Shown one piece after another: positions 4,108-43,961 of a DNA stretch of 64,000 nt; positions within the stretch are counted from its first letter, which is position 1; each line of letters starts with the position of its first letter. The position numbers were made by a program, and so were the translations under genes. Source of the stretch: Chryseobacterium sp. IHB B 17019 (GTDB lineage: Bacteria; Bacteroidota; Bacteroidia; Flavobacteriales; Weeksellaceae); NCBI RefSeq assembly GCF_001456155.1, contig NZ_CP013293.1, positions 310,001-374,000 on the forward strand, written 5' to 3'. The notes beneath the pieces are model-generated. The model saw only the letters and a program-made list of their open reading frames with translations. It ran no database searches and had not been told where the DNA came from.

Positions 4108-6810
4108 ATGGGCTTATCTAAATATCGTGAGAAACGATCACAAGAAAAGACGCCTGAACCTTTTGGAGGCGAACCCTCAGGAAAAGAGTTACGATTTGTA
4201 GTACAAAAGCACGACGCCTCGCACCTGCATTACGATTTCAGGCTTGAGATGGATGGAGTGCTGAAAAGCTGGGCAGTCCCCAAGGGACCATCGTTAGATC
4301 CTGAGATCAAACGGCTGGCTATGATGGTTGAAGACCATCCCTATGATTACAGGGATTTTGAGGGAATTATTCCTAAAGGGCAATATGGTGGTGGTACAGT
4401 TATCGTATGGGATGAAGGAACCTACGAACCCGCGGAGCCCGTGGATGGCGATTTGAAAAAACAGGAGAAACACCTGTTGCATCAGTTGTATTCGGGTAAG
4501 ATAAAGATACTGATGAAAGGTAAAAAGCTCAAAGGCGAGTTTGCCCTGGTTAAGGCACATGGGCGGGGAGAGAATGGATGGCTGTTAATGAAACTCGATG
4601 ATAAATATGCCAGTAAAGATGATGTCACCCTAAAAGATAAATCTGTAATATCCAGAAAAACCATTGAACAGATGGAAAAAGCACCCGACAATGTTTATGG
4701 CCGTAATATCATGAAAAAAAATACCACTGTTAAGGATAAAAAGGCAACTGCCAGAAAAGCTGTTGAGGTAATTGATTCACAACTGGCAGCGGAGCCGGAA
4801 ACTCAAGTAGCGAAACAGCCAAAATTAACAAACCTTCTGAAAGGAACAACCAAGGAGAAATTTTATGACAGTGTGCAGCCTATGTTGGCAACGCTTGTTG
4901 ATGAGCCATTTGACAGTAATGATTGGCTTTATGAAATAAAATGGGATGGATATCGTGCAGTTGCCTTTATGGAAGGGAAAAAAATAGAACTGAAATCCCG
5001 CAACGATAAAAGTTTTGCCGAAAAATTTTACCCTATATATGATGAGCTGACAAACCTGAAACTGGACGCTGTACTCGACGGGGAAATTGTTGTTCTTGGG
5101 GAACATGGCAAAGCAAACTTCGGCTCGCTTCAGAACTGGCGTAGTGAAGCAGATGGCGATCTGGTGTACTATGTTTTCGATATTTTGTGGTATAAGGGAA
5201 TGGATCTGAAAGGACTTACTTTGGTAGAGAGAAAAGCCATTCTCGCACAGGTGCTGCCGGAAAGCAAGACTATTCTCCTCAGCAAGGAATTTGATACCTC
5301 TGGGTTAGAATTTTTAGAAGCGGCAACAAAGATGGGCCTTGAGGGTATTATGGCGAAACGTAAAGGCAGTATATATCACACTCACAATCGCACCAAAGAC
5401 TGGCTCAAAATTAAGGCGAATAAACGGCAGGAGGTTGTTATTGGCGGTTTTACCCGTAATGATGACACCAATAAACAGTTCAGCAGTCTACTTGTCGGGG
5501 TCTACGAAGGTAAAAAGTTGATTTACACAGGAAAAGTGGGAACGGGTTTCAACGATAAGATGCAGAAAGAAATGATGGAACAGTTCAAACCGCTGTTCAC
5601 GGATAAACCACCTTTTTCCGAAGAGCCTGATGTAAATAAACCATCGCGCTTCCGTCCCAATCCACCGCATGCGACTGTAACTTGGCTTAAACCGGAACTG
5701 ATCGGTGAGGTGAGCTACACGGAACTCACCAGCGACGGGGTCATGCGGCATCCTTCATTCAAAGGCATGCGGTCAGATAAAAGTGCAAAAAAGGTAGTGC
5801 TTGAACGAGAAAGGAACACAGAAGACGTTTTATCGGATGAAAAAGATACCATTGTGAATCCGCGAGGTAAGCAAGGGAGGAAAACGCTTTTAAATCCAAC
5901 AGAAAAAACGCAGGTAAAAAAAATAAACAGGCACGAACTGAAATTTACCAACCTCGATAAAATTTTCTGGCCGGATGAAAAAATTACAAAGCGGGACCTG
6001 ATCAATTATTATTATCAGATTGCACCGTATATTTTACCTTACCTGAAAGACCGCCCGCAGAGCATGAACCGGTTTCCTGACGGTATTAAAGGCGGGGGGT
6101 TCTACTTCAAGGATGTGACCGGAAAGGCACCAGACTGGATTGAAAGATATAGTTACACCAGCGATTCTGATCATCGCGAAAGGCAGTATCTTGTGGGAAG
6201 TGATGAAGCTACGTTACTTTATATGGCTAACCTCGCCTGTATTGAGATGAATCCGTGGAATAGCACAATTAAAAAAACCGATCATCCGACCTACTGTATT
6301 ATTGATCTTGATCCAGATAAAAATTCTTTTGACCAGGTAATTGAAACAGCACTAGTTGCCAAGCAGATTCTTGATGATATGGGTGTGCCGAGTTACTGTA
6401 AGACCAGCGGATCAACGGGGCTTCACATTTATATACCGCTTGGCAATAAATACACCTATGAGCAAAGCAAGGAATTTGCAAGGGTGATCGTGACGCTAAT
6501 ACATCGCGAACTTCCGAAGTTTACAACAATCGAAAGGGCTATTTCTGACCGCAAAGGAAAGATGTACCTTGATTTCCTTCAGAACCGCCCACATGCGACC
6601 ATTGCCTCAGTATACTCATTAAGACCAAAGCCTGGAGCAACTGTTTCAATGCCTTTGCAATGGGACGAGGTAAAACAAGGCTTAAAAATGAAAGATTTTA
6701 ATATTTTCAATGCGATGGAAAGGCTTGAAAGTTTGGGCGATATTTTTAAGCCTGTTCTGGGAAAAGGGATTAACATGGAAAAGATTATATCGGATGCATC
6801 AAATGGTTAA
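4108..6810 (+). CDS. ligD: DNA ligase D (phosphoesterase-ligase-polymerase)
   Basis: This is a multifunctional end-joining enzyme of 900 residues with domains in the order PE, LIG, POL. PE (about 25-165): His35, His41, Asp43, Arg45 and His77 sit in the QKHDASHLHYDFRLE and VEDHPYDY motifs that form the 3'-phosphoesterase site. LIG (about 255-560): Lys278 in the KWDGYR motif is the expected AMP-accepting lysine. POL (about 620-890): Asp733 and Asp735 in IIDLDPD are the likely metal ligands of the primase-like polymerase. The length fits full LigD. Its usual partner Ku is not in this window. It repairs double-strand breaks by non-homologous end joining; carriage on a mobile element is notable. 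Confidence 0.95.
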   Translation: MGLSKYREKRSQEKTPEPFGGEPSGKELRFVVQKHDASHLHYDFRLEMDGVLKSWAVPKGPSLDPEIKRLAMMVEDHPYDYRDFEGIIPKGQYGGGTVIVWDEGTYEPAEPVDGDLKKQEKHLLHQLYSGKIKILMKGKKLKGEFALVKAHGRGENGWLLMKLDDKYASKDDVTLKDKSVISRKTIEQMEKAPDNVYGRNIMKKNTTVKDKKATARKAVEVIDSQLAAEPETQVAKQPKLTNLLKGTTKEKFYDSVQPMLATLVDEPFDSNDWLYEIKWDGYRAVAFMEGKKIELKSRNDKSFAEKFYPIYDELTNLKLDAVLDGEIVVLGEHGKANFGSLQNWRSEADGDLVYYVFDILWYKGMDLKGLTLVERKAILAQVLPESKTILLSKEFDTSGLEFLEAATKMGLEGIMAKRKGSIYHTHNRTKDWLKIKANKRQEVVIGGFTRNDDTNKQFSSLLVGVYEGKKLIYTGKVGTGFNDKMQKEMMEQFKPLFTDKPPFSEEPDVNKPSRFRPNPPHATVTWLKPELIGEVSYTELTSDGVMRHPSFKGMRSDKSAKKVVLERERNTEDVLSDEKDTIVNPRGKQGRKTLLNPTEKTQVKKINRHELKFTNLDKIFWPDEKITKRDLINYYYQIAPYILPYLKDRPQSMNRFPDGIKGGGFYFKDVTGKAPDWIERYSYTSDSDHRERQYLVGSDEATLLYMANLACIEMNPWNSTIKKTDHPTYCIIDLDPDKNSFDQVIETALVAKQILDDMGVPSYCKTSGSTGLHIYIPLGNKYTYEQSKEFARVIVTLIHRELPKFTTIERAISDRKGKMYLDFLQNRPHATIASVYSLRPKPGATVSMPLQWDEVKQGLKMKDFNIFNAMERLESLGDIFKPVLGKGINMEKIISDASNG

Positions 6811-7929: not shown

Positions 7930-8733
7930 TTAAACCTTGATTGGCTGAGAACGGAAATCTTTAAGGTTCATAAAAAATCCTCTGTTTTCGGTGATTCCGT
8001 TGCGGAACAGATTCCACAATAAAGAACAGCCCATTTGAGCCAATACCGAATTAATATATAAATCCTGTTTTTCCAGTGCTTCTGCCAGTGAACAGCTTGG
8101 TGTGTTATCTTCGCTTTCAGATTGCTTGAGTATATCCCCAAATTCTTCTGTTACCAAAGGTAGGTCCGAAACGGTTTCGTATTTTTCAGAACTCGGCTGC
8201 CTGATTGCTCCAATCGTGGAAAGTACTACCTGTCCCGTATGTTTATTGTTTCCAAAATCCATCCAGTATTTGGTTTGGTTTCGTAAAAATTTTCCACCGT
8301 TTAATTCCTTGAGTATGTCTGCAATTTCGAAACGGGCTTTTACCGTATCGACACAGGAAATCATTATGGTGGCAGATGCATTTTCTGGCAATTTTCCAAT
8401 TGCATTACGTGCGAATTTTACCGTTTCAGCTTTCCAGTTGGTTCCTGCCCATCTGTTGGCGCGGTTTATCAATGCTACTGATTTATACAGTCCTGTTTCA
8501 CATTCGGCAAAACGCTGTCTGCTTAGATTGGCACTGGTTACTATATCATCATCCCAAAGGCGGATGGACAATCCTGCGTGTCCGAGTTCGGTGAGCGAAT
8601 GGTTCATTTCCATAAGAGCGGTCAAAACCTTAGAACCTGTGCCACCTGCTCCGATCAGGTTGATTTCAACAGGATTGGTCGGGTTGATCAGGTAGCCGTC
8701 CGTAAAATGCATTTTTATTTTTTGGGTATTCAT
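7930..8733 (-). CDS. PRTRC system ThiF family protein
   Basis: This 267-residue E1-like protein starts with the ThiF/MoeB nucleotide-binding loop GAGGTGSKVL (about residues 29-38), followed by RLWDDDIVTSANLSRQRF, which carries the conserved Asp and the LxRQ signature. ThiF folds adenylate the C-terminus of small proteins. In the PRTRC cassette (ParB-Related, ThiF-Related) a ThiF homologue co-occurs with proteins A-F on plasmids and conjugative elements. Here it is the last gene of the leftward operon and overlaps protein B by 4 nt. The modified partner is not known. Confidence 0.9.
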   Translation of the reverse strand: MNTQKIKMHFTDGYLINPTNPVEINLIGAGGTGSKVLTALMEMNHSLTELGHAGLSIRLWDDDIVTSANLSRQRFAECETGLYKSVALINRANRWAGTNWKAETVKFARNAIGKLPENASATIMISCVDTVKARFEIADILKELNGGKFLRNQTKYWMDFGNNKHTGQVVLSTIGAIRQPSSEKYETVSDLPLVTEEFGDILKQSESEDNTPSCSLAEALEKQDLYINSVLAQMGCSLLWNLFRNGITENRGFFMNLKDFRSQPIKV

Positions 8734-9467
8734 GTCAGTAAATTTTTAAGTGTGAGCCCTGTTTTTTTCAGCGATTCTTTTGGAAATATTTCACCAGCGT
8801 TAACCAGTTTTTTCCACAGCATTACACAGTTGCCTTTTACGGGGTTGTGTTCATTCATCAGGTGGCTGAAATAGCTGTTAAAGAAATAATTTTCCCAAGC
8901 CGTGATAAATGTTTCGAGTGATGCTGATTTTTTGATTTCAACATTTACCGTTCCCATACAAACCGCACCATCCTTATAGACATTAAAAAATGGGGCGTGA
9001 TAGAGTAGTGTTTTTTCTGTCGGTCTGCTTTGTGATTTAAGCGCATAGACTGATAACTGGTTGCGGTTGGCAACCCAGATCATAGAGGGAACGCCCGCCA
9101 TTCCATTGGGGATGCCCAAGTTCTCAACGAAGAAAAGATTCCTGTTTGTTGCTTTTGTAAACCATATCACCCGACCGTTATCGGTGGGATTCACCTGTAA
9201 AATATGGCTTCCCAAAATTCCCTGTGATTTTAGGAATGACTTTTTTTCGGTTTCGGCAGTCTGAAGGGACTTAGACAAAGCATTGGCTTCCCTAACGGTT
9301 AAAGGGTGGGCATTGATAAGGTTACCGTTTTTGTCCATATCGAAATGTTCAACGTAAATATCTGTGTCGTCATTTTTACCTGCATAAATGATCAATGCAC
9401 TTTTCGGATGATAAAGGTTTGCGAAGTTTTCTGTCAGGTCAATTAGATTTTCCATAATAATCATCAT
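8730..9467 (-). CDS. PRTRC system protein B
   Basis: This 245-residue protein lies directly upstream of the ThiF gene with a 4-nt ATGA overlap, as expected for PRTRC protein B. It contains the family-like segments HPLTVREANAL, LPLM-type beta stretches, YHAPFFNVYKDGAVCMGTV, and a C-terminal helical part mentioning FSHLMNEHNPVKG. The N-terminus has alternative starts; ATG at 9455 (MENLIDL) is as good as 9467. It overlaps the end of the 399-aa gene upstream, so translation is likely coupled. Biochemical function is unknown. Confidence 0.85.
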   Translation of the reverse strand: MMIIMENLIDLTENFANLYHPKSALIIYAGKNDDTDIYVEHFDMDKNGNLINAHPLTVREANALSKSLQTAETEKKSFLKSQGILGSHILQVNPTDNGRVIWFTKATNRNLFFVENLGIPNGMAGVPSMIWVANRNQLSVYALKSQSRPTEKTLLYHAPFFNVYKDGAVCMGTVNVEIKKSASLETFITAWENYFFNSYFSHLMNEHNPVKGNCVMLWKKLVNAGEIFPKESLKKTGLTLKNLLT

Positions 9468-10638
9468 TGTATTTATTTAAAAGATAGATCAGGTTATCGA
9501 TAATGTCGAACAACTGTTCTTCAAAATCAAGATTTCTGTTAGTTAATGAACTGCCGTCAAAAACCTTGAAAACCGTTGGCTCTTCGATCTTTCCCATTTC
9601 TCCAAAATTCATGTTCAAGGTGTCATACAGGTTTTCTGATAACCTGCCTCTGCTGTGCGCATAAAATGAAACATACATATTCATTTCGACCACATTGTTC
9701 TCCTCATAATCATCCATTTCTTCATCATCCAGTCGGGAGTGATCGATATGGGCATTTCTTGAATATTTTTCGTTAGGATACTGCGTATGCAGTCGGAAAG
9801 CACTTAAAGCAAGGTCAATACATTCTTTTTGAAAACTATTGTTAGCATTGAATTTTTGCAGACGGTTTTCAAAAAAATCAAGATTTTTAAGGTTATAGAG
9901 TTTCTTCTCTATCCAGTCCCCAATACTGCCCGCTAACGTGAATTCTTTTAAATAACTTTCCTGAAAGTCAAATTCATCATCTGTCTCCATCCACTCTCTC
10001 AGCATTTCATACTGCCAGTATAGGTAAGAGCCTTCTTGCCTGTAATAGGGGATATCGGCAATATGGTAAAGGTAGGAGCAGACCGAGAGTAAGATATGGG
10101 CAGTTCTTTTGTAATACTTGTCCTTCAACATCAGAAAGAGCGGAATGATTGGGATATAATATAATGTTGCTCCGGTCGAAAACCGTTCTTCAGTGATCAG
10201 AAAAGTCTTTGTCTTGTCCTGCACGATTTTTAGATCATTCCAGTATCTCACGTTGCACTTCAAAAAGTTTTTGGTTTCGGACAGCGAGAAGGAAATATTA
10301 TAAGGATAGGCTAACAAGGGGTCTTCGCTGGGCGTAAATCCTTGATAGTGCTTCGCTAATGTTAAAAGGGACTGATAAAAATCTTTTTGCAGCTTAGCTG
10401 TTTTATCAACATGTATTTTACTTTCTGCCCGTAACTTCGGCAAAATTTTAGTTCTTAGAAAACCATTGGCAACTGGCTCAATGGTACGGATTTCCGCCTG
10501 TCCTTTTGTATTTCTGACGCATCTTTGGGTCTTTTCATCCATGACGCGAACTCGGCTACTTGTAGGTGCAGTTTCCTTTGTTTTTTTTCTGCGGGTGTTT
10601 TTATACATCCCGATACTATATGTTGGTGCATAATCCAT
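9439..10638 (-). CDS. Probable PRTRC system protein F
   Basis: This 399-residue, mostly helical protein has an acidic stretch (HIDHSRLDDEEMDDYEENN) near residues 300-320. It sits between PRTRC protein C and protein B in a tightly packed operon, overlapping B by 29 nt. Protein F is the most variable member of the cassette and has a similar length in proteobacteria, so position and size point to F, but I cannot confirm it from motifs. No catalytic motif is visible. It may be structural or DNA-associated, given its basic N-terminus (KNTRRKKTKE). Confidence 0.55.
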   Translation of the reverse strand: MDYAPTYSIGMYKNTRRKKTKETAPTSSRVRVMDEKTQRCVRNTKGQAEIRTIEPVANGFLRTKILPKLRAESKIHVDKTAKLQKDFYQSLLTLAKHYQGFTPSEDPLLAYPYNISFSLSETKNFLKCNVRYWNDLKIVQDKTKTFLITEERFSTGATLYYIPIIPLFLMLKDKYYKRTAHILLSVCSYLYHIADIPYYRQEGSYLYWQYEMLREWMETDDEFDFQESYLKEFTLAGSIGDWIEKKLYNLKNLDFFENRLQKFNANNSFQKECIDLALSAFRLHTQYPNEKYSRNAHIDHSRLDDEEMDDYEENNVVEMNMYVSFYAHSRGRLSENLYDTLNMNFGEMGKIEEPTVFKVFDGSSLTNRNLDFEEQLFDIIDNLIYLLNKYNDDYYGKSN

Positions 10639-10655
10639 TTTTTTGGTTTTTATAG

Positions 10656-10874
10656 TTAACCCTTTGTTCCCATTACACTCTCAAAGGAGTACTTGACTTT
10701 GTCATCTTCAATCTTGGGATGAGAAATTTTGGCTGTCGTCAAAATCGGATAGGTGTTTGCGTAAAAGTTAAGTACAGCATCCACACTCCATTTTGGTTCG
10801 GGATCGGTCAAAACGATTTCGTGACCTTTATCTGTGAATTTGAAAATTCTTTCAAGTTGCGTTGCTAATAACAT
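10656..10874 (-). CDS. PRTRC system protein C
   Basis: This 72-residue protein matches the very short protein C of the cassette: RIFKFTDKGHEIVLTDPEP, then LNFYANTYPILTTAKI and a C-terminal VKYSFESVMGTKG. Ubiquitin-like-sized proteins encoded next to ThiF enzymes are sometimes their substrates; the C-terminal GTKG is not a clean di-glycine, so this remains speculation. It is 17 bp upstream of the probable F gene and 20 bp downstream of E, within one operon. Confidence 0.85.
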   Translation of the reverse strand: MLLATQLERIFKFTDKGHEIVLTDPEPKWSVDAVLNFYANTYPILTTAKISHPKIEDDKVKYSFESVMGTKG

Positions 10875-10894
10875 GATGATTGTTTTTAAGTTAA

Positions 10895-11425
10895 TTATTC
10901 GGTAGGTTCCCCAAAAAGGCTAGGGGCTAAAAATTTTTCAAGTTCCGACATTCGTTTACGGATAGCTTCCGCATGATCAGGGTAGTCGGCAATTTTTGGT
11001 AAAGCCGTCCAAGATTCCTTGTACTTCCTTTCTTTTTCAAGGTTGGCGGATTTCGACATGGCGTCCAGAAATTTCTTATCTTTTCCCTCGACAAGTTTTT
11101 TCTCCCTTTCGCTGTTCTGCTTTACCATTGCAGACTGTTTTTCGGCTTCCTCCACCTGTTTCAAAAAGGCTTCCATATTGGTCATCAGTCCCGACACCCG
11201 TTCCAATGGTGAGGTGATTGTTTCAAAAAAGTCTTCGTCCAGTTCTTCGGCTGTACCTTTTAAGGTACAGGGGACAATCAGGTTTTTCGCACGGTCTCCG
11301 CAGTTGTCGTTTTGAAGCAGTACCGACACTACCCAATTATTTTCTGTGCCCTGCCTAATGGTGATATTCAAATCACCAGTAATATTCATTTGGGCTATCT
11401 GAGTAAAAAAATTAATCGTTGCCAT
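10895..11425 (-). CDS. PRTRC system protein E
   Basis: This 176-residue protein starts at ATG 11425 (MATINFFTQIAQ); an in-frame ATG at 11443 would add six residues and overlap the previous gene more. The N-terminal half is beta-rich (MNITGDLNITI, WVVSVLLQND) with LIVPCTLKGTAEELDEDFF, typical of protein E. The C-terminal half is a Lys/Glu-rich coiled coil (about 95-150). It overlaps the upstream 121-aa gene by 14 nt, suggesting coupled translation. Function unknown beyond association with the cassette. Confidence 0.85.
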   Translation of the reverse strand: MATINFFTQIAQMNITGDLNITIRQGTENNWVVSVLLQNDNCGDRAKNLIVPCTLKGTAEELDEDFFETITSPLERVSGLMTNMEAFLKQVEEAEKQSAMVKQNSEREKKLVEGKDKKFLDAMSKSANLEKERKYKESWTALPKIADYPDHAEAIRKRMSELEKFLAPSLFGEPTE

Positions 11426-11777
11426 AGTTGTATCTTTTTTCAATTAATAATGCTGTTATTGTTTCTTCGCCCAAGTCCATTTCACGGAGCATGTTTTCAT
11501 AATCAGCCATTGCTTTTTCAAATTCCCGTTGCCATTCTTCTCCTAAAAGTTGAAGCTTGTTTGCTGTACCGTTCTTATGGGCTTTCTGAATGGTTTTCAG
11601 GAGCTTGTCGGCATAGCATTTCTGTTTGCTTAACCTGCGATCGGCGAGTGCTTTCAGGATATACTGGTTCAATACATCGTAAAACGACATTGCCCGCATC
11701 GCATCGCTTTTCCGCAGGGCTTCGACATACCTGTTATAGAGCCATTCCGCGAATTCATTATTATTTCCGTAAGTCAT
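11412..11777 (-). CDS. Hypothetical helical protein in the ssb-PRTRC operon
   Basis: This 121-residue, almost entirely helical protein (YNRYVEALRKSDAMRAMSFYDVL, then Lys-rich helices) has no known motif. It overlaps both neighbours (14 nt with PRTRC E and 17 nt with the 77-aa gene), which is strong support that it is real and translated with them. I recall homologues in Bacteroidota conjugative elements only by context. It could be a DNA-binding or scaffolding protein; nothing in the sequence decides this. Confidence 0.7.
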   Translation of the reverse strand: MTYGNNNEFAEWLYNRYVEALRKSDAMRAMSFYDVLNQYILKALADRRLSKQKCYADKLLKTIQKAHKNGTANKLQLLGEEWQREFEKAMADYENMLREMDLGEETITALLIEKRYNYGND

Positions 11778-12665: not shown

Positions 12666-13739
12666 CTAGTTGAAGCAAAGGGCATCACTTCCGATTTTTG
12701 AGAATGAGGTACACAGTTCAAATGCTTTTTGTGCTTTTCCCTGAGCTGTACCGCCCATTACGATAGATTGTAATTTGGCTTCGCTATCTTTGTACTTCCG
12801 TACATTTTGATAGTAGCCTGTCACAGCGTTGTACGCCCCGAACAGTGTGCCTTTGGTGGTTTCCATTTGCTGGGTATCGCTCGTCATAGCGTAGGCAAAG
12901 GCATCCTCCACGGTATTTTTGAAGACTGTTGAAATATCATCTTCATTGCCATTTTGCAGATGTGCCAGTGTTTCTTTGTTCGGGCATAGTGCCAACTGGA
13001 TCAGTTCTTTAACCTCCCTGTCATTCACCTTCACTTTTGCCCACTCGTTAAAAATCCCCTCTAGTTGGGTTGCCATTCTGTTCGCCAGTCCCATGACTTT
13101 GTGGGCATCTTCCAAACGCTGTTTAGCACCTGCTGTATGTTTGATACGCACCACATTGGACATATTGCTGAATGCAGCGTTAAGGGTGTTCTGGCAAACA
13201 ATCCTTACGGGGGTAAATGCAGCCGTGATACTTCCGCTACCATCGTGCGAGGTGGTCAGGAAAATATATTTTTCAGTTACATCGTCACCGTTTCCCACCC
13301 TGATATAATCGGGCAGTTTGGCGGTGATAAAGATGCGTTCCCCATTACCCAATGCTCCTGCGGTCTCGTACAGAATCCCGTCACCACAGCCTACAATGGC
13401 ATCAAAAAATGCAAAGGCTTCGCGGTTCTGTACAATCTGATAATCTTTGCCCACTACACCCAATGCAGTATTGTTGTCCGTGCGGAGTGTTGCAAAATTG
13501 TTGGGAAGCAGAATATGATCAGGTTCTACGATTTCGCCCTCGTTTCCGATGGTTATTGATCTGCCCTGCGTAAATAAGGGTGCTTTGATCACGTCATAGT
13601 CCAATCCTGCGTGCTTAATGGCTTCTTCGCTTGTCGGAAAATCTTCTACAATCTGCCCTAAGCCGTGCCAAGCTTTTTCTTTAACACTAAAAAATGAGTA
13701 TTTGCCTGTGTTTTCGTTGAAATTTAAATTATGTGCCAT
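12666..13739 (-). CDS. DUF932 domain protein (phage/plasmid-like)
   Basis: This 357-residue protein shows the DUF932 pattern: an N-terminal KEKAWHGLGQIVEDFPTSEEA, then NTALGVVGKDYQIVQNREAFAFFD, a middle FLTTSHDGSGSITAAFTPVRIVCQNTL (read here in parts), and a helical C-terminus. DUF932 proteins are almost always carried by phages, plasmids and conjugative elements, often beside ssb; some lie in leader regions that enter the recipient first. Their activity is unknown. Length is typical. It is second in the leftward operon, 58 bp after ssb. Confidence 0.9.
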   Translation of the reverse strand: MAHNLNFNENTGKYSFFSVKEKAWHGLGQIVEDFPTSEEAIKHAGLDYDVIKAPLFTQGRSITIGNEGEIVEPDHILLPNNFATLRTDNNTALGVVGKDYQIVQNREAFAFFDAIVGCGDGILYETAGALGNGERIFITAKLPDYIRVGNGDDVTEKYIFLTTSHDGSGSITAAFTPVRIVCQNTLNAAFSNMSNVVRIKHTAGAKQRLEDAHKVMGLANRMATQLEGIFNEWAKVKVNDREVKELIQLALCPNKETLAHLQNGNEDDISTVFKNTVEDAFAYAMTSDTQQMETTKGTLFGAYNAVTGYYQNVRKYKDSEAKLQSIVMGGTAQGKAQKAFELCTSFSKIGSDALCFN

Positions 13740-13797: not shown

Positions 13798-14196
13798 CTA
13801 AAATGGGAGATCGTCGTCCTCACTGCCGTTTGCAGTTTTGCTGTCCTTACCCTCTTTGGATGCAGTAGCTTTAGCACCATGCGTTTTTGTGCCACCTCCG
13901 TACACCGTGATTTCTGAAGTATGGAAATTGAGCCCTGCGTGTGCCTGTCCGTCACTTCCTAGCCACGATCTTACCGATGCCCTGCCCGAAAGCTCGACCA
14001 AAGTTCCTTTGGTCAGGATTTTAGCAACGTTGGTGCTGATCCAATATGCGCAGTCGAAATACGTTGTCTGCTCTATGCGTTCGCCCTGCTTGTTTTTGTA
14101 GCTGTAATTTGAAGCCACTGAGAAGTTCACTACCTGTTTGTCCTGCGACACTGTGCGTACCTGCGCATCGCGTGTCAATCGTCCGATGATGTTCAT
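13798..14196 (-). CDS. ssb: Single-stranded DNA-binding protein
   Basis: This 132-residue protein carries the OB-fold pattern of SSB: start MNIIGRLTRDAQVRTV, then VVNFSVASNYSY, TTYFDCAYW, LVELSGRASVRSW and LNFHTSEITVYGG. The acidic C-terminal tip ends in DDDLPF, the standard site for binding partner proteins. It coats single-stranded DNA during transfer or replication. Because it heads an operon with DUF932 and PRTRC genes on a mobile element, it is most likely the element's own SSB rather than the chromosomal one. The structured region at 14372-14535 lies about 180 nt upstream. Confidence 0.95.
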   Translation of the reverse strand: MNIIGRLTRDAQVRTVSQDKQVVNFSVASNYSYKNKQGERIEQTTYFDCAYWISTNVAKILTKGTLVELSGRASVRSWLGSDGQAHAGLNFHTSEITVYGGGTKTHGAKATASKEGKDSKTANGSEDDDLPF

Positions 14197-14371
14197 GTCC
14201 TTAAATTTTTGTAGGTTGTTGTACTTGTTGTTTCACTGCCCTGCCATGAATTTTTTTTGATTTATTCGGTATGAGATGGAGGAGCTGTTTCTTTTCACTC
14301 TGTTACCATTTCCAATGCTGTAGTTTTTCATAGCTGACATTTTTTTTATTCGTCTAAGAGCCGGAGTATGC

Positions 14372-14535
14372 TTTGTTTCTTTTCACGAGCAAAAAAGGTT
14401 AGTGTTTAGCAGGAGCAAGTTTTTGGCAAACAAATACTACCCGCAGGGTGGAGATTTTTTGCCAAATCCTGCAAGGACCCAACTTGCTGCTGCGTTAAGA
14501 ACACGTTGTTACCTTTGCTCTTGAACTGAAACAAA
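14372..14535. promoter_or_regulatory. Nested 164-nt foldback element upstream of ssb
   Basis: The arms pair in order from outside in: TTTGTTTC (14372-14379) with GAAACAAA (14528-14535); GAGCAAA (14387-14393) with TTTGCTC (14514-14520); GTGT (14402-14405) with ACAC (14501-14504); GCAG (14409-14412) with CTGC (14490-14493); GCAAGTT (14415-14421) with AACTTGC (14481-14487); TTTGGCAAA (14422-14430) with TTTGCCAAA (14458-14466). Two small hairpins sit inside: CTACCC/GGGTGG (14437-14451) and TCCT/AGGA (14467-14477). Such multi-stem conservation suggests selection on structure, as RNA, as a promoter formed on single-stranded DNA, or as an origin. No ORF explains it. Confidence 0.6.
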
Positions 14536-14998
14536 AACAGCATCCCGGGTCTGACCTGTAAAAGACCAAAGTGGAAGTGATGAAAAACAGCATTAAGGAA
14601 ATGGTCGAATGTGATGGGAACCAGTACATCAGTTATTACCGATAACTTTTAAAATATCTATAATCCAAAAGTCCTTGGTCTTATGCAATAAGTTATCCCG
14701 TACATGTGGGAGGGGTTTTAGGCAGAAAGGATAATTAAAGCTAAACTTCTTTATGATGGGCGTGCATATGAGATCATTACGCTATTTTTTATGAAGCACC
14801 TGTTGTGTTGAGAACCGCAATTGTCTAGTATTAATTTATTGATCCAATTGTGAAGCAAAGTGGGAGCTTAGAGGCTTCCTGGGCCGAGAGTAGTATCTGG
14901 TAGTTATTTGCCATATGCAACGCTCAAAACAAGTTTTTTTATAAAAAAAATAAAAAAAATCGGTACATTAGTCTTATTGATAACCAAATACTTAACCT

Positions 14999-42245: not shown

Positions 42246-43637
42246 TTAAGCTTTTATTTGGGATTTCAGTGAGACTAGCCTGTTTTCGAACTGCACTAGT
42301 CTTTGTTCTATAGAACTTCCAGAATCGTGAGTTTTTATGGTGCCATTCTTTAAATCATTTAACTCATTTTCCAGCTTTTGAATTAGATCTGATATGCATA
42401 AAGCTTCATTCGTGGTTGCAGGCTTCGTTAATCTTTCAGCTAGTTTTGTCATTTCGTTAGCAACAGCTTCTTGCTCAGTGATCGCGTAATCTTCCGTCTG
42501 TTTCACGGAACTATGTCCCAGCATTTCTTTTACAATGGATATAGGTACACCGTTATTAAGTGTAACAGTACTTGCAAATGTGCGCCTTGCCTTGTGAGTA
42601 TTGAGAGCAGCATCTATATTGCAAAGAGTAGCAATCTCTTTCAAGTAGGCATTCATCTTCTGATTGGATTTTACCGGCAATACTGAGTTGCGTTGAATAC
42701 AAATAGGATGCGACTGATACTTTTCCAGAATCTCCAGCGCTTTTGGCAGTAGCGGTATGTCTGTCCTGGCTTTTGACTTCTGTCTAGAACTCATAATCCA
42801 AAGTCTGCCGTCGTCTCCTTCTTTTATGTCATGTTTTTTAAGTTGGAAGGCATCAATATAGGCCAGACCGGTGTAACATTGAAATACAAAAATGTCCCTA
42901 ATTGTTGCCAATCTTTCATTCTCAAAGCTCTTATCTTCAAGACTTCGTAATTCAGCTCTAGTTAGCGGCTTTTTTTTAGGCTTAGTCATTTTCCCTTTAA
43001 AAAGTTTGAAGGGGTCCTTCGGAAGAATATCTTTGGCTACGGCATCTAGAATAATCTTTTTAAAATTCCGAATGTATTTCAAAGACGTATTGTTGCCGCA
43101 TTTTCTGACTGTTCTCAAATAAAATTCATAGTCCTTAATAAATTCATAATTAAGCTCCCAAAACTCAATATCATCTCTTTGGAATTTGAAAAGAAGGAAT
43201 TCCTGCACATGGGATCTGGCAGTGACATATCTTTTATATGTCCCCTCAGCATATTCGCCAGGCACGAGTAGCTTCATTCTGTCGTTATGTTTCTGAAATT
43301 CTTCTAAAACTTTTAGATTTAACGGGTTTTTACCTTTCACAAAATCAATAATGGATAATGCCGTAATCTTTCTTCCGGCTTTTATCAGTTCTGTTTTGTA
43401 GTTGTTAATCTTGGTTGTTAAAGTTTCGAGGAAATGATTAAGACTTCTCGCGTCTTCTTTGTTTCCCGACGCCTTTTCATGGGCCTGATCCCACCTTGTC
43501 ACATCCCACTTTCGCTTAGTCGACGTTTCCTTTGGTACCCCATCTACGGTTACCCTTACATAAACATATCTGAGATTTTCAGATTTTCCTGATTGGCTCT
43601 TCAAAAAGAAGTTTAGCCCATAACTGTGTTCTAGCAT
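42246..43637 (-). CDS. Tyrosine recombinase (site-specific integrase)
   Basis: This 463-residue phage-type integrase has an N-terminal Arm DNA-binding domain (about 1-90, starting with YGLNFFLKSQSGKS), a SAM-like core-binding domain (about 105-205), and a catalytic domain from about 215. Catalytic residues appear in order: Arg in CYTGLAYIDA context, HKARRTFAS carrying His-x-x-Arg, then a LGHSS His and Tyr in VKQTEDYAI. A C-terminal coiled tail (about 405-463) is typical of Bacteroidota elements. It lies directly beside the tRNA-Ser 3' end, the usual place for the integrase of a conjugative or mobilisable element. Transcription runs into the element. Confidence 0.93.
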   Translation of the reverse strand: MLEHSYGLNFFLKSQSGKSENLRYVYVRVTVDGVPKETSTKRKWDVTRWDQAHEKASGNKEDARSLNHFLETLTTKINNYKTELIKAGRKITALSIIDFVKGKNPLNLKVLEEFQKHNDRMKLLVPGEYAEGTYKRYVTARSHVQEFLLFKFQRDDIEFWELNYEFIKDYEFYLRTVRKCGNNTSLKYIRNFKKIILDAVAKDILPKDPFKLFKGKMTKPKKKPLTRAELRSLEDKSFENERLATIRDIFVFQCYTGLAYIDAFQLKKHDIKEGDDGRLWIMSSRQKSKARTDIPLLPKALEILEKYQSHPICIQRNSVLPVKSNQKMNAYLKEIATLCNIDAALNTHKARRTFASTVTLNNGVPISIVKEMLGHSSVKQTEDYAITEQEAVANEMTKLAERLTKPATTNEALCISDLIQKLENELNDLKNGTIKTHDSGSSIEQRLVQFENRLVSLKSQIKA

Positions 43638-43869: not shown

Positions 43870-43895
43870 TTCTGCAGAAAGGAAGGGATTCGAAC
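43870..43895. other. Probable integration site (att) at the tRNA-Ser 3' end
   Basis: The integrase lies about 240 bp from the 3' end of the tRNA gene with no gene in between. Integrases of this kind recombine at the T-arm/acceptor end of tRNA genes and restore the gene, so the crossover should fall within this stretch. The second copy should lie left of the window; I see no other copy inside. Confidence 0.45.
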
Positions 43896-43961
43896 CCTCG
43901 ATACAGTTACCCGTATACTACCTTTCCAGGGTAGCTCCTTCAACCACTCGGACACCTTTCT
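43875..43961 (-). tRNA. tRNA-Ser (anticodon GGA)
   Basis: The minus strand folds as a class II tRNA of 87 nt. The acceptor AGAAAGG pairs with CCTTTCT, the D-arm region reads TCCGAGTGGTTGAAGGA, the anticodon loop is CTGGAAA within TACCCTGGAAAGGTA giving GGA, a long variable arm follows (GTATACGGGTAACTGTATC), and the T-arm is GAGGGTTCGAATCCCTTC. CCA is not encoded, as usual in this phylum. It marks the border between the mobile element (left) and the chromosome (right). Confidence 0.95.

Follow-up and report, generated by a model that had tools for sequence, protein, structure and literature searches.

The early promoters of coliphage N4 are DNA hairpins of 5 to 7 bp that are used on entry by an injected phage RNA polymerase. 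The single-strand origins of rolling-circle plasmids and ICEs consist of a folded single strand that is recognised by the host RNA polymerase, where only primers are made. The closest described system to the locus considered here is Frpo of the F plasmid: the transferred strand folds there so that promoter boxes are restored, and ssb and other genes are expressed from it until the DNA has become double-stranded (PMC9849209). It has been described as both a promoter and a priming site (Masai and Arai 1997, as cited in PMC9849209). Where the same source turns to the ssi promoters of the IncI1 plasmid ColIb-P9, it presents them as single-stranded promoters before ssb, psiB and ardA that are active on entry and need secondary structure for their activity (PMC9849209).

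The locus lies in a window of 64,000 nucleotides from Chryseobacterium sp. IHB B 17019, by which we mean the whole stretch of DNA that was analysed (310001–374000 on its contig), and which holds the right part of an integrative element. The initial annotation had placed a foldback upstream of an ssb/DUF932/PRTRC operon on a mobile element. This setting is borne out by the integrase and, to the left of the window, by a MobB-like relaxase, a MipZ-like ATPase and tra genes of the same element. The genes concerned are as follows.

13798–14196, minus strand: ssb, first gene of the proposed operon (PF00436, E 7.7e-18)
12666–13739, minus strand: gene of a DUF932 protein (PF06067, E 7e-70)
7930–11443, minus strand: PRTRC genes, whole span, within the proposed operon
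10895–11443, minus strand: PRTRC_E
10656–10874, minus strand: Prok_Ub
8730–9467, minus strand: Prok-E2_D
7930–8733, minus strand: ThiF
42246–43637, minus strand: tyrosine integrase, adjoining tRNA-Ser (43874–43961), at the right end of the element

The element also seems to carry DNA repair cargo, with a LigD-like ligase and DinB- and DnaE2-like polymerases (sequence judged by eye); these genes lie at 4108–6810 within the window and at −20068 to −15842 beyond its left edge.

With DNA parameters, positions 14372–14535 folded at −41.3 kcal/mol, compared to a mean of −19.1 kcal/mol for 200 dinucleotide shuffles (z −7.6), none of which was as low. RNA parameters gave −64.8 kcal/mol (z −6.9), and again no shuffle was equally low. 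The earlier suggestion that pairing of this order is unlikely to arise by chance was upheld by this comparison, and the nested arms described for this stretch are present. They form a single long interrupted stem, which is in fact longer, as the arms keep pairing outwards to give a complete foldback of about 200 bases at 14352–14555. It had also been stated that no ORF accounts for the foldback, and indeed it contains no coding ORF of at least 60 aa; to the left, ssb is the first gene encountered. Searches of Rfam returned no relevant family for the window at the gathering score or for the flank at a relaxed score, and nothing came near the gathering score. The parts of the foldback and of its left flank are listed below.

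14352–14555, plus strand: complete foldback, on the proposed transferred strand (basis: fold, covariation and the folding of the plus strand rather than its complement)
14357–14431, plus strand: 5′ arm, proposed template of the folded promoter (basis: fold, conserved left-side sequence and genes)
14416–14419, plus strand: CAAG, partner of the −33 element (alignment columns 91–95, 97–100% conserved)
14433–14458, plus strand: apical hairpin AATACTACCCGCAGGGTGGAGATTTT, near-invariant (basis: invariant columns in the alignment)
14460–14555, plus strand: 3′ arm, proposed non-template strand with the promoter boxes
14483–14486, plus strand: CTTG, proposed −33 element, pairing with CAAG (T247 and T248 99–100%, G249 84%, alignment A3)
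14510–14517, plus strand: TACCTTTG, matching TAnnTTTG, proposed −7 element, adjoining an internal loop
14380–14386, minus strand: predicted start of the leftward RNA, taken from the base opposite 14524 (pair 14524–14383)
14336–14354, minus strand: conserved block GACGAATAAAAAAAATGTC, within the predicted initially transcribed region

The predicted start was placed using the distance between the −7 box and the start in the Bacteroidota consensus (PMC9723704).

Relatives found by blastn came from Prevotella plasmids and other Bacteroidota. Searching genome contigs with the apical motif as pattern retrieved at least 118 stretches, nearly all Bacteroidota by title among the matches listed, with Flavobacterium, Bacteroides, Prevotella, Sphingobacterium and Cytophagales represented among these; as the motif itself served as the search pattern, the conservation of the apex in this set is partly due to selection. 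A covariance model had matches in 21 of 395 Bacteroidota genomes, with seven per genome at most. Across 49 non-redundant relatives, the folding z calculated with DNA parameters had a mean of −6.3 and was below −3 in 46. Compensatory changes were observed at 24 of the 46 consensus pairs in an alignment based on sequence only and at 37 of the 46 in an alignment of 105 model matches, where 93.6% of cells were paired. The latter alignment is biased towards the model, and the sequence-only alignment is therefore the independent one. For the model matches, the covariation score was 0.437 versus 0.124 for shuffled data (reached in 0 of 500), and sliding the partners by one base destroyed the signal. 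Conservation and covariation of the arms in relatives, which the initial annotation had named as the deciding check, were thus found.

Outside the fold, sequence identity was 74% and then 51% in the left flank, and in the right flank it was at the level of shuffled sequence past 50 nt. The block GACGNATAAAAAAAATGTC (minus strand, 14336–14354) was shared by relatives ranging from Flavobacterium to Prevotella; a single base varied, and an A-run differed slightly in length. A conserved leader peptide was considered for this block and rejected, as its ATG opens ORFs of 6 to 91 codons among the relatives.

The family also contains departures from the single hairpin. Tandem hairpins, about 320–400 nt apart and in the same orientation, stood before DUF6943 (loci L034, L084, L131, L066 and L027), and a second, diverged hairpin was seen in Prevotella nigrescens F0103 (L014, 3042–3209, minus strand) beside integrase, DUF1896 and helix-turn-helix genes. 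At some loci the 5′ arm was swapped for unrelated sequence, with the 3′ arm and the boxes retained (L192 8915–9038, L198 2975–3098, L209 449–572 and L082 7171–7294). These copies look like products of recombination within the hairpin. In the three copies with a replaced 5′ arm that lie on viral contigs, it was the complement that folded better.

Mismatches in the stem are informative about the strand on which it folds. On the plus strand, 182 G·T versus 52 A·C mismatches were counted (3.5:1) when columns with T·G as the rule were excluded, and the sequence-only alignment gave 34 versus 9. With RNA energies, the plus strand was the more stable at 97 of 98 loci, its mean advantage over the complement being 12.6 kcal/mol, and with DNA energies it was so at 45 of 49. 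The G·T excess together with the higher stability of the plus strand shows that the structure was selected on this strand, either as DNA or as RNA. A bias in the same direction was obtained for the region upstream of ssb in the F plasmid, which served as positive control of the strand rule and folded at −115.8 on the transferred strand and at −108.0 on the complement.

Promoters of Bacteroidota have the consensus TAnnTTTG at −7 and TTTG at −33 (PMC2483708, PMC9723704). TAnnTTTG was present on the 3′ arm at 73 of 94 loci chosen by the apex and, in reversed form, on the 5′ arm at none of them; about one fifth of the loci do not have an exact TAnnTTTG. It gave the single box peak within 500 bases on either strand (41 of 52 non-redundant loci), which indicates that the genes on the left have no conserved ordinary promoter and that there is none for a plus-strand RNA. 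When the apex was excluded, the most conserved positions of the arms were CCTTG and TANCTTTGC, which correspond to the promoter boxes on the 3′ arm, and CTTG paired with CAAG of the 5′ arm in nearly all relatives. On the 3′ arm, CTTG and the −7 box were separated by anywhere between 17 and 40 nt, but the 5′ arm kept this spacing nearly constant; at loci with 37–40 nt on the 3′ arm, the template arm still had 16–17. The additional bases of the 3′ arm are looped out and the spacing in the duplex is preserved, as a promoter would require.

The orientation of the boxes depends on the form of the DNA: on the duplex they point rightward, away from ssb, and on the folded plus strand leftward, into ssb. 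Genes for SSB (47 of 47), DUF932 (42 of 42), PcfK (34 of 34) and DUF6943 (30 of 30) were all found on the left and on the minus strand and never on the right, related loci being included in these counts. The first gene differed between loci (SSB, PcfK or DUF6943, which are mutually unrelated), with side and strand constant. As four unrelated gene families are always on the left and on the minus strand, we consider the leftward direction to be the relevant one.

Thirteen elements have an intact mobB on the contig of the hairpin; they are related and do not represent independent events. In all of them, the hairpin was on the upstream side of mobB and folded on the strand opposite mobB. The arrangement in Prevotella F0103 agrees with this, and one element with a degenerate mobB fragment had the opposite arrangement. 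Relaxase genes are typically the last to enter the recipient (PMC11541004), and the folding strand, being opposite mobB, is therefore the one expected to be transferred. By this relaxase rule, we infer that the plus strand is the transferred strand. The hairpin is located beyond the tra genes in the window element and in Prevotella F0103, and its distance to mobB is about 72 kb in the window element and 14–35 kb in the relatives. A distance of some 72 kb places the hairpin outside the very first DNA to enter.

We attribute to the foldback, with a probability of about 0.74, the role of a single-stranded DNA promoter whose mode of action resembles that of Frpo in the F plasmid and which is built for the Bacteroidota sigma factor. 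The features on which this sequence-based attribution is founded were seen directly, namely the fold, its conservation and covariation, the strand that folds, the position and orientation of the boxes and the orientation of the genes. A Frpo-type promoter on folded single-stranded DNA had already been suggested in the initial annotation; covariation, strand-specific folding and the −7/−33 boxes on the 3′ arm lend support to it, as do the side on which the genes lie, the conservation of the predicted transcribed side only and the fixed strand relative to the relaxase gene. During conjugation the plus strand would be transferred and would fold back at 14352–14555. The 3′ arm would then be the non-template strand, with CTTG near −33 and TAnnTTTG at −7, beside a bulge and an internal loop, and the 5′ arm would be the template. 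We infer that host RNA polymerase would use this fold by initiating near 14383, leaving via the base of the stem and reading the single-stranded 5′ flank, with an mRNA of the ssb, DUF932 and PRTRC genes as the product in the new host. Once the complementary strand had been made, the promoter on the duplex would face the other way and the operon would be switched off. Promoter boxes do not account for the near-invariance of the apical hairpin, a point that counts against this reading.

With Frpo1 and Frpo2 of F, the locus shares a non-coding position upstream of ssb and early genes of a conjugative element and a long interrupted hairpin that restores promoter boxes aimed at these genes (PMC9849209), and as in F one strand folds stably, here with the fold under selection. 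In F the transferred strand serves as template for the early genes (PMC9849209), and we propose the same here. In the F plasmid, too, a DUF932 gene lies on the side of ssb that faces oriT, and the same region includes an antirestriction gene. The locus differs from Frpo in its Bacteroidota −7/−33 boxes in place of −10/−35, in the added near-invariant apical hairpin, in a greater distance from the relaxase and in the occurrence of copies on viral contigs and in islands. Frpo and ssi sites belong to the first-entering DNA close to oriT, whereas the present hairpins are 14–72 kb from mobB, and the model R1 found no match in the leading region of F at E values up to 1. Because of this distance from oriT and the lack of sequence similarity, we call the hairpin Frpo-like in its working and not a Frpo. 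The likeness to the ssi promoters is drawn from their description; ColIb-P9 is an enterobacterial plasmid. Compared to the N4 promoters, the stem is long and has host sigma boxes, and unlike the single-strand origins of rolling-circle plasmids and ICEs, the hairpin is linked to a one-sided set of early genes.

Part of this evidence would equally be expected if the foldback were mainly a single-strand origin, where RNA made by RNA polymerase or primase on the folded plus strand primes the complementary strand and expression is secondary or absent. Priming would use the same fold, strand and boxes, and it would help to account for the copies in phages and islands. It would, however, demand neither that SSB, DUF932, PcfK and DUF6943 are always on the left and on the minus strand nor that sequence conservation is confined to the left, and we consider this explanation unlikely. 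The copies that precede ArdA- or ArdC-like genes in a tailed phage and on further viral contigs, as well as copies in islands of genomes with no MobB match, would also suit a hairpin promoter that is extruded from supercoiled double-stranded DNA, in the manner of the early promoters of coliphage N4, and is active after duplex entry too. Extrusion of a stem of about 80 pairs with loops is costly by established physics, and the strand asymmetry and the fixed strand with respect to mobB are better suited to a single strand, so that we assign only a small chance to this possibility.

The G·T pairs on the plus strand are likewise expected of a structured small RNA made from that strand, to which we give a slight chance at best: the plus strand has no box peak to the left of the fold, the internal box would, on the duplex, start transcription past most of the fold, and there was no match in Rfam. 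A structured 5′ leader of the ssb mRNA, acting as riboswitch or attenuator, would be well placed, as the fold lies in the path of the ssb transcript, 150–190 nt ahead of the gene. Such a leader would be made of the minus strand, which folds worse at 97 of the 98 loci and would carry A·C mismatches; moreover, there is no minus-strand box peak on the right and the first genes are mutually unrelated. A leader of a minus-strand mRNA was rejected on the G·T versus A·C bias and the weaker folding of this strand and is very unlikely. Finally, a single-strand fold on a mobile element, which in islands lies beside variable cargo, could be an oriT, an alternative raised in the initial annotation, or a folded single-strand recombination site of the attC type. 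An oriT would be next to the relaxase operon, but in all elements with an intact mobB the hairpin is too distant from the relaxase gene (14–72 kb). There are, in addition, several copies per genome, and the promoter boxes would be left unaccounted for; this last explanation is very unlikely.

The hairpin was also detected outside conjugative elements. Among 24 viral contigs with the apex, three resembled ICEs in having SSB or PcfK to the left of the hairpin; the 5′ arm was replaced in three. On several others, an ArdA or ArdC-N gene was to the left of the hairpin (L200, L187, L189, L191, L202 and L207). One viral contig has a tape-measure gene and is that of a tailed phage; for the remaining ones, the phage label was taken from the collection and from terminase-like genes judged by eye. 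In two genomes of the Flavobacterium order with no MobB match (G057 and G084), copies adjoined DUF6943, and the islands around them also contained TIR, DISARM and type I restriction genes; Rfam searches of the island loci returned a tRNA only. These loci (L175–L180), viewed from about 3 kb on the left to 5 kb on the right, have a fixed frame of a 252-aa protein, DUF5675, DUF6943, the hairpin and about 1 kb of conserved DNA. The cargo within it changes (TIR, DISARM DrmA/DrmB, type I restriction, metal ATPase), and up to four hairpin copies occur per genome. The islands look like a cargo or defence hotspot.

Conjugation alone does not account for the copies in phages and islands, as no conjugative single strands are expected there. 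There are two ways to explain them: a single-stranded stage of these DNAs too, or a hairpin able to act when extruded. We tentatively suggest, at somewhat less than even odds, a phylum-wide class of fold-back promoters serving ICEs, tailed phages and cargo islands. The hairpin would form a portable cassette with anti-restriction, SSB or DUF6943 genes and its activity would be limited to times when the plus strand is in single or extruded form, with protective genes on at entry or replication and silent in the resident duplex.

Our literature search, which was thin on subscription papers, found no earlier report of single-stranded promoters in Bacteroidota. A large survey of leading regions relied on known Frpo sequences and sigma-70 boxes and names neither Bacteroides nor Bacteroidota in the main text (PMC11541004); a search of this kind would miss the Bacteroidota type.

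In summary, the fold probably activates protective genes at the single-stranded stage of the incoming DNA, a trick known before from enterobacterial F-type plasmids. If the portable cassette exists as suggested, DUF6943, DUF932, PRTRC and PcfK/PcfJ would become candidate establishment or counter-defence genes. If the Frpo-like reading is true, mobile elements of Bacteroidota, which are major carriers of resistance genes in the gut, would use the Frpo trick with different boxes, and the hairpin would provide a searchable mark, in sequence and structure, of the genes expressed first: SSB, ArdA, ArdC and several families of unknown function.
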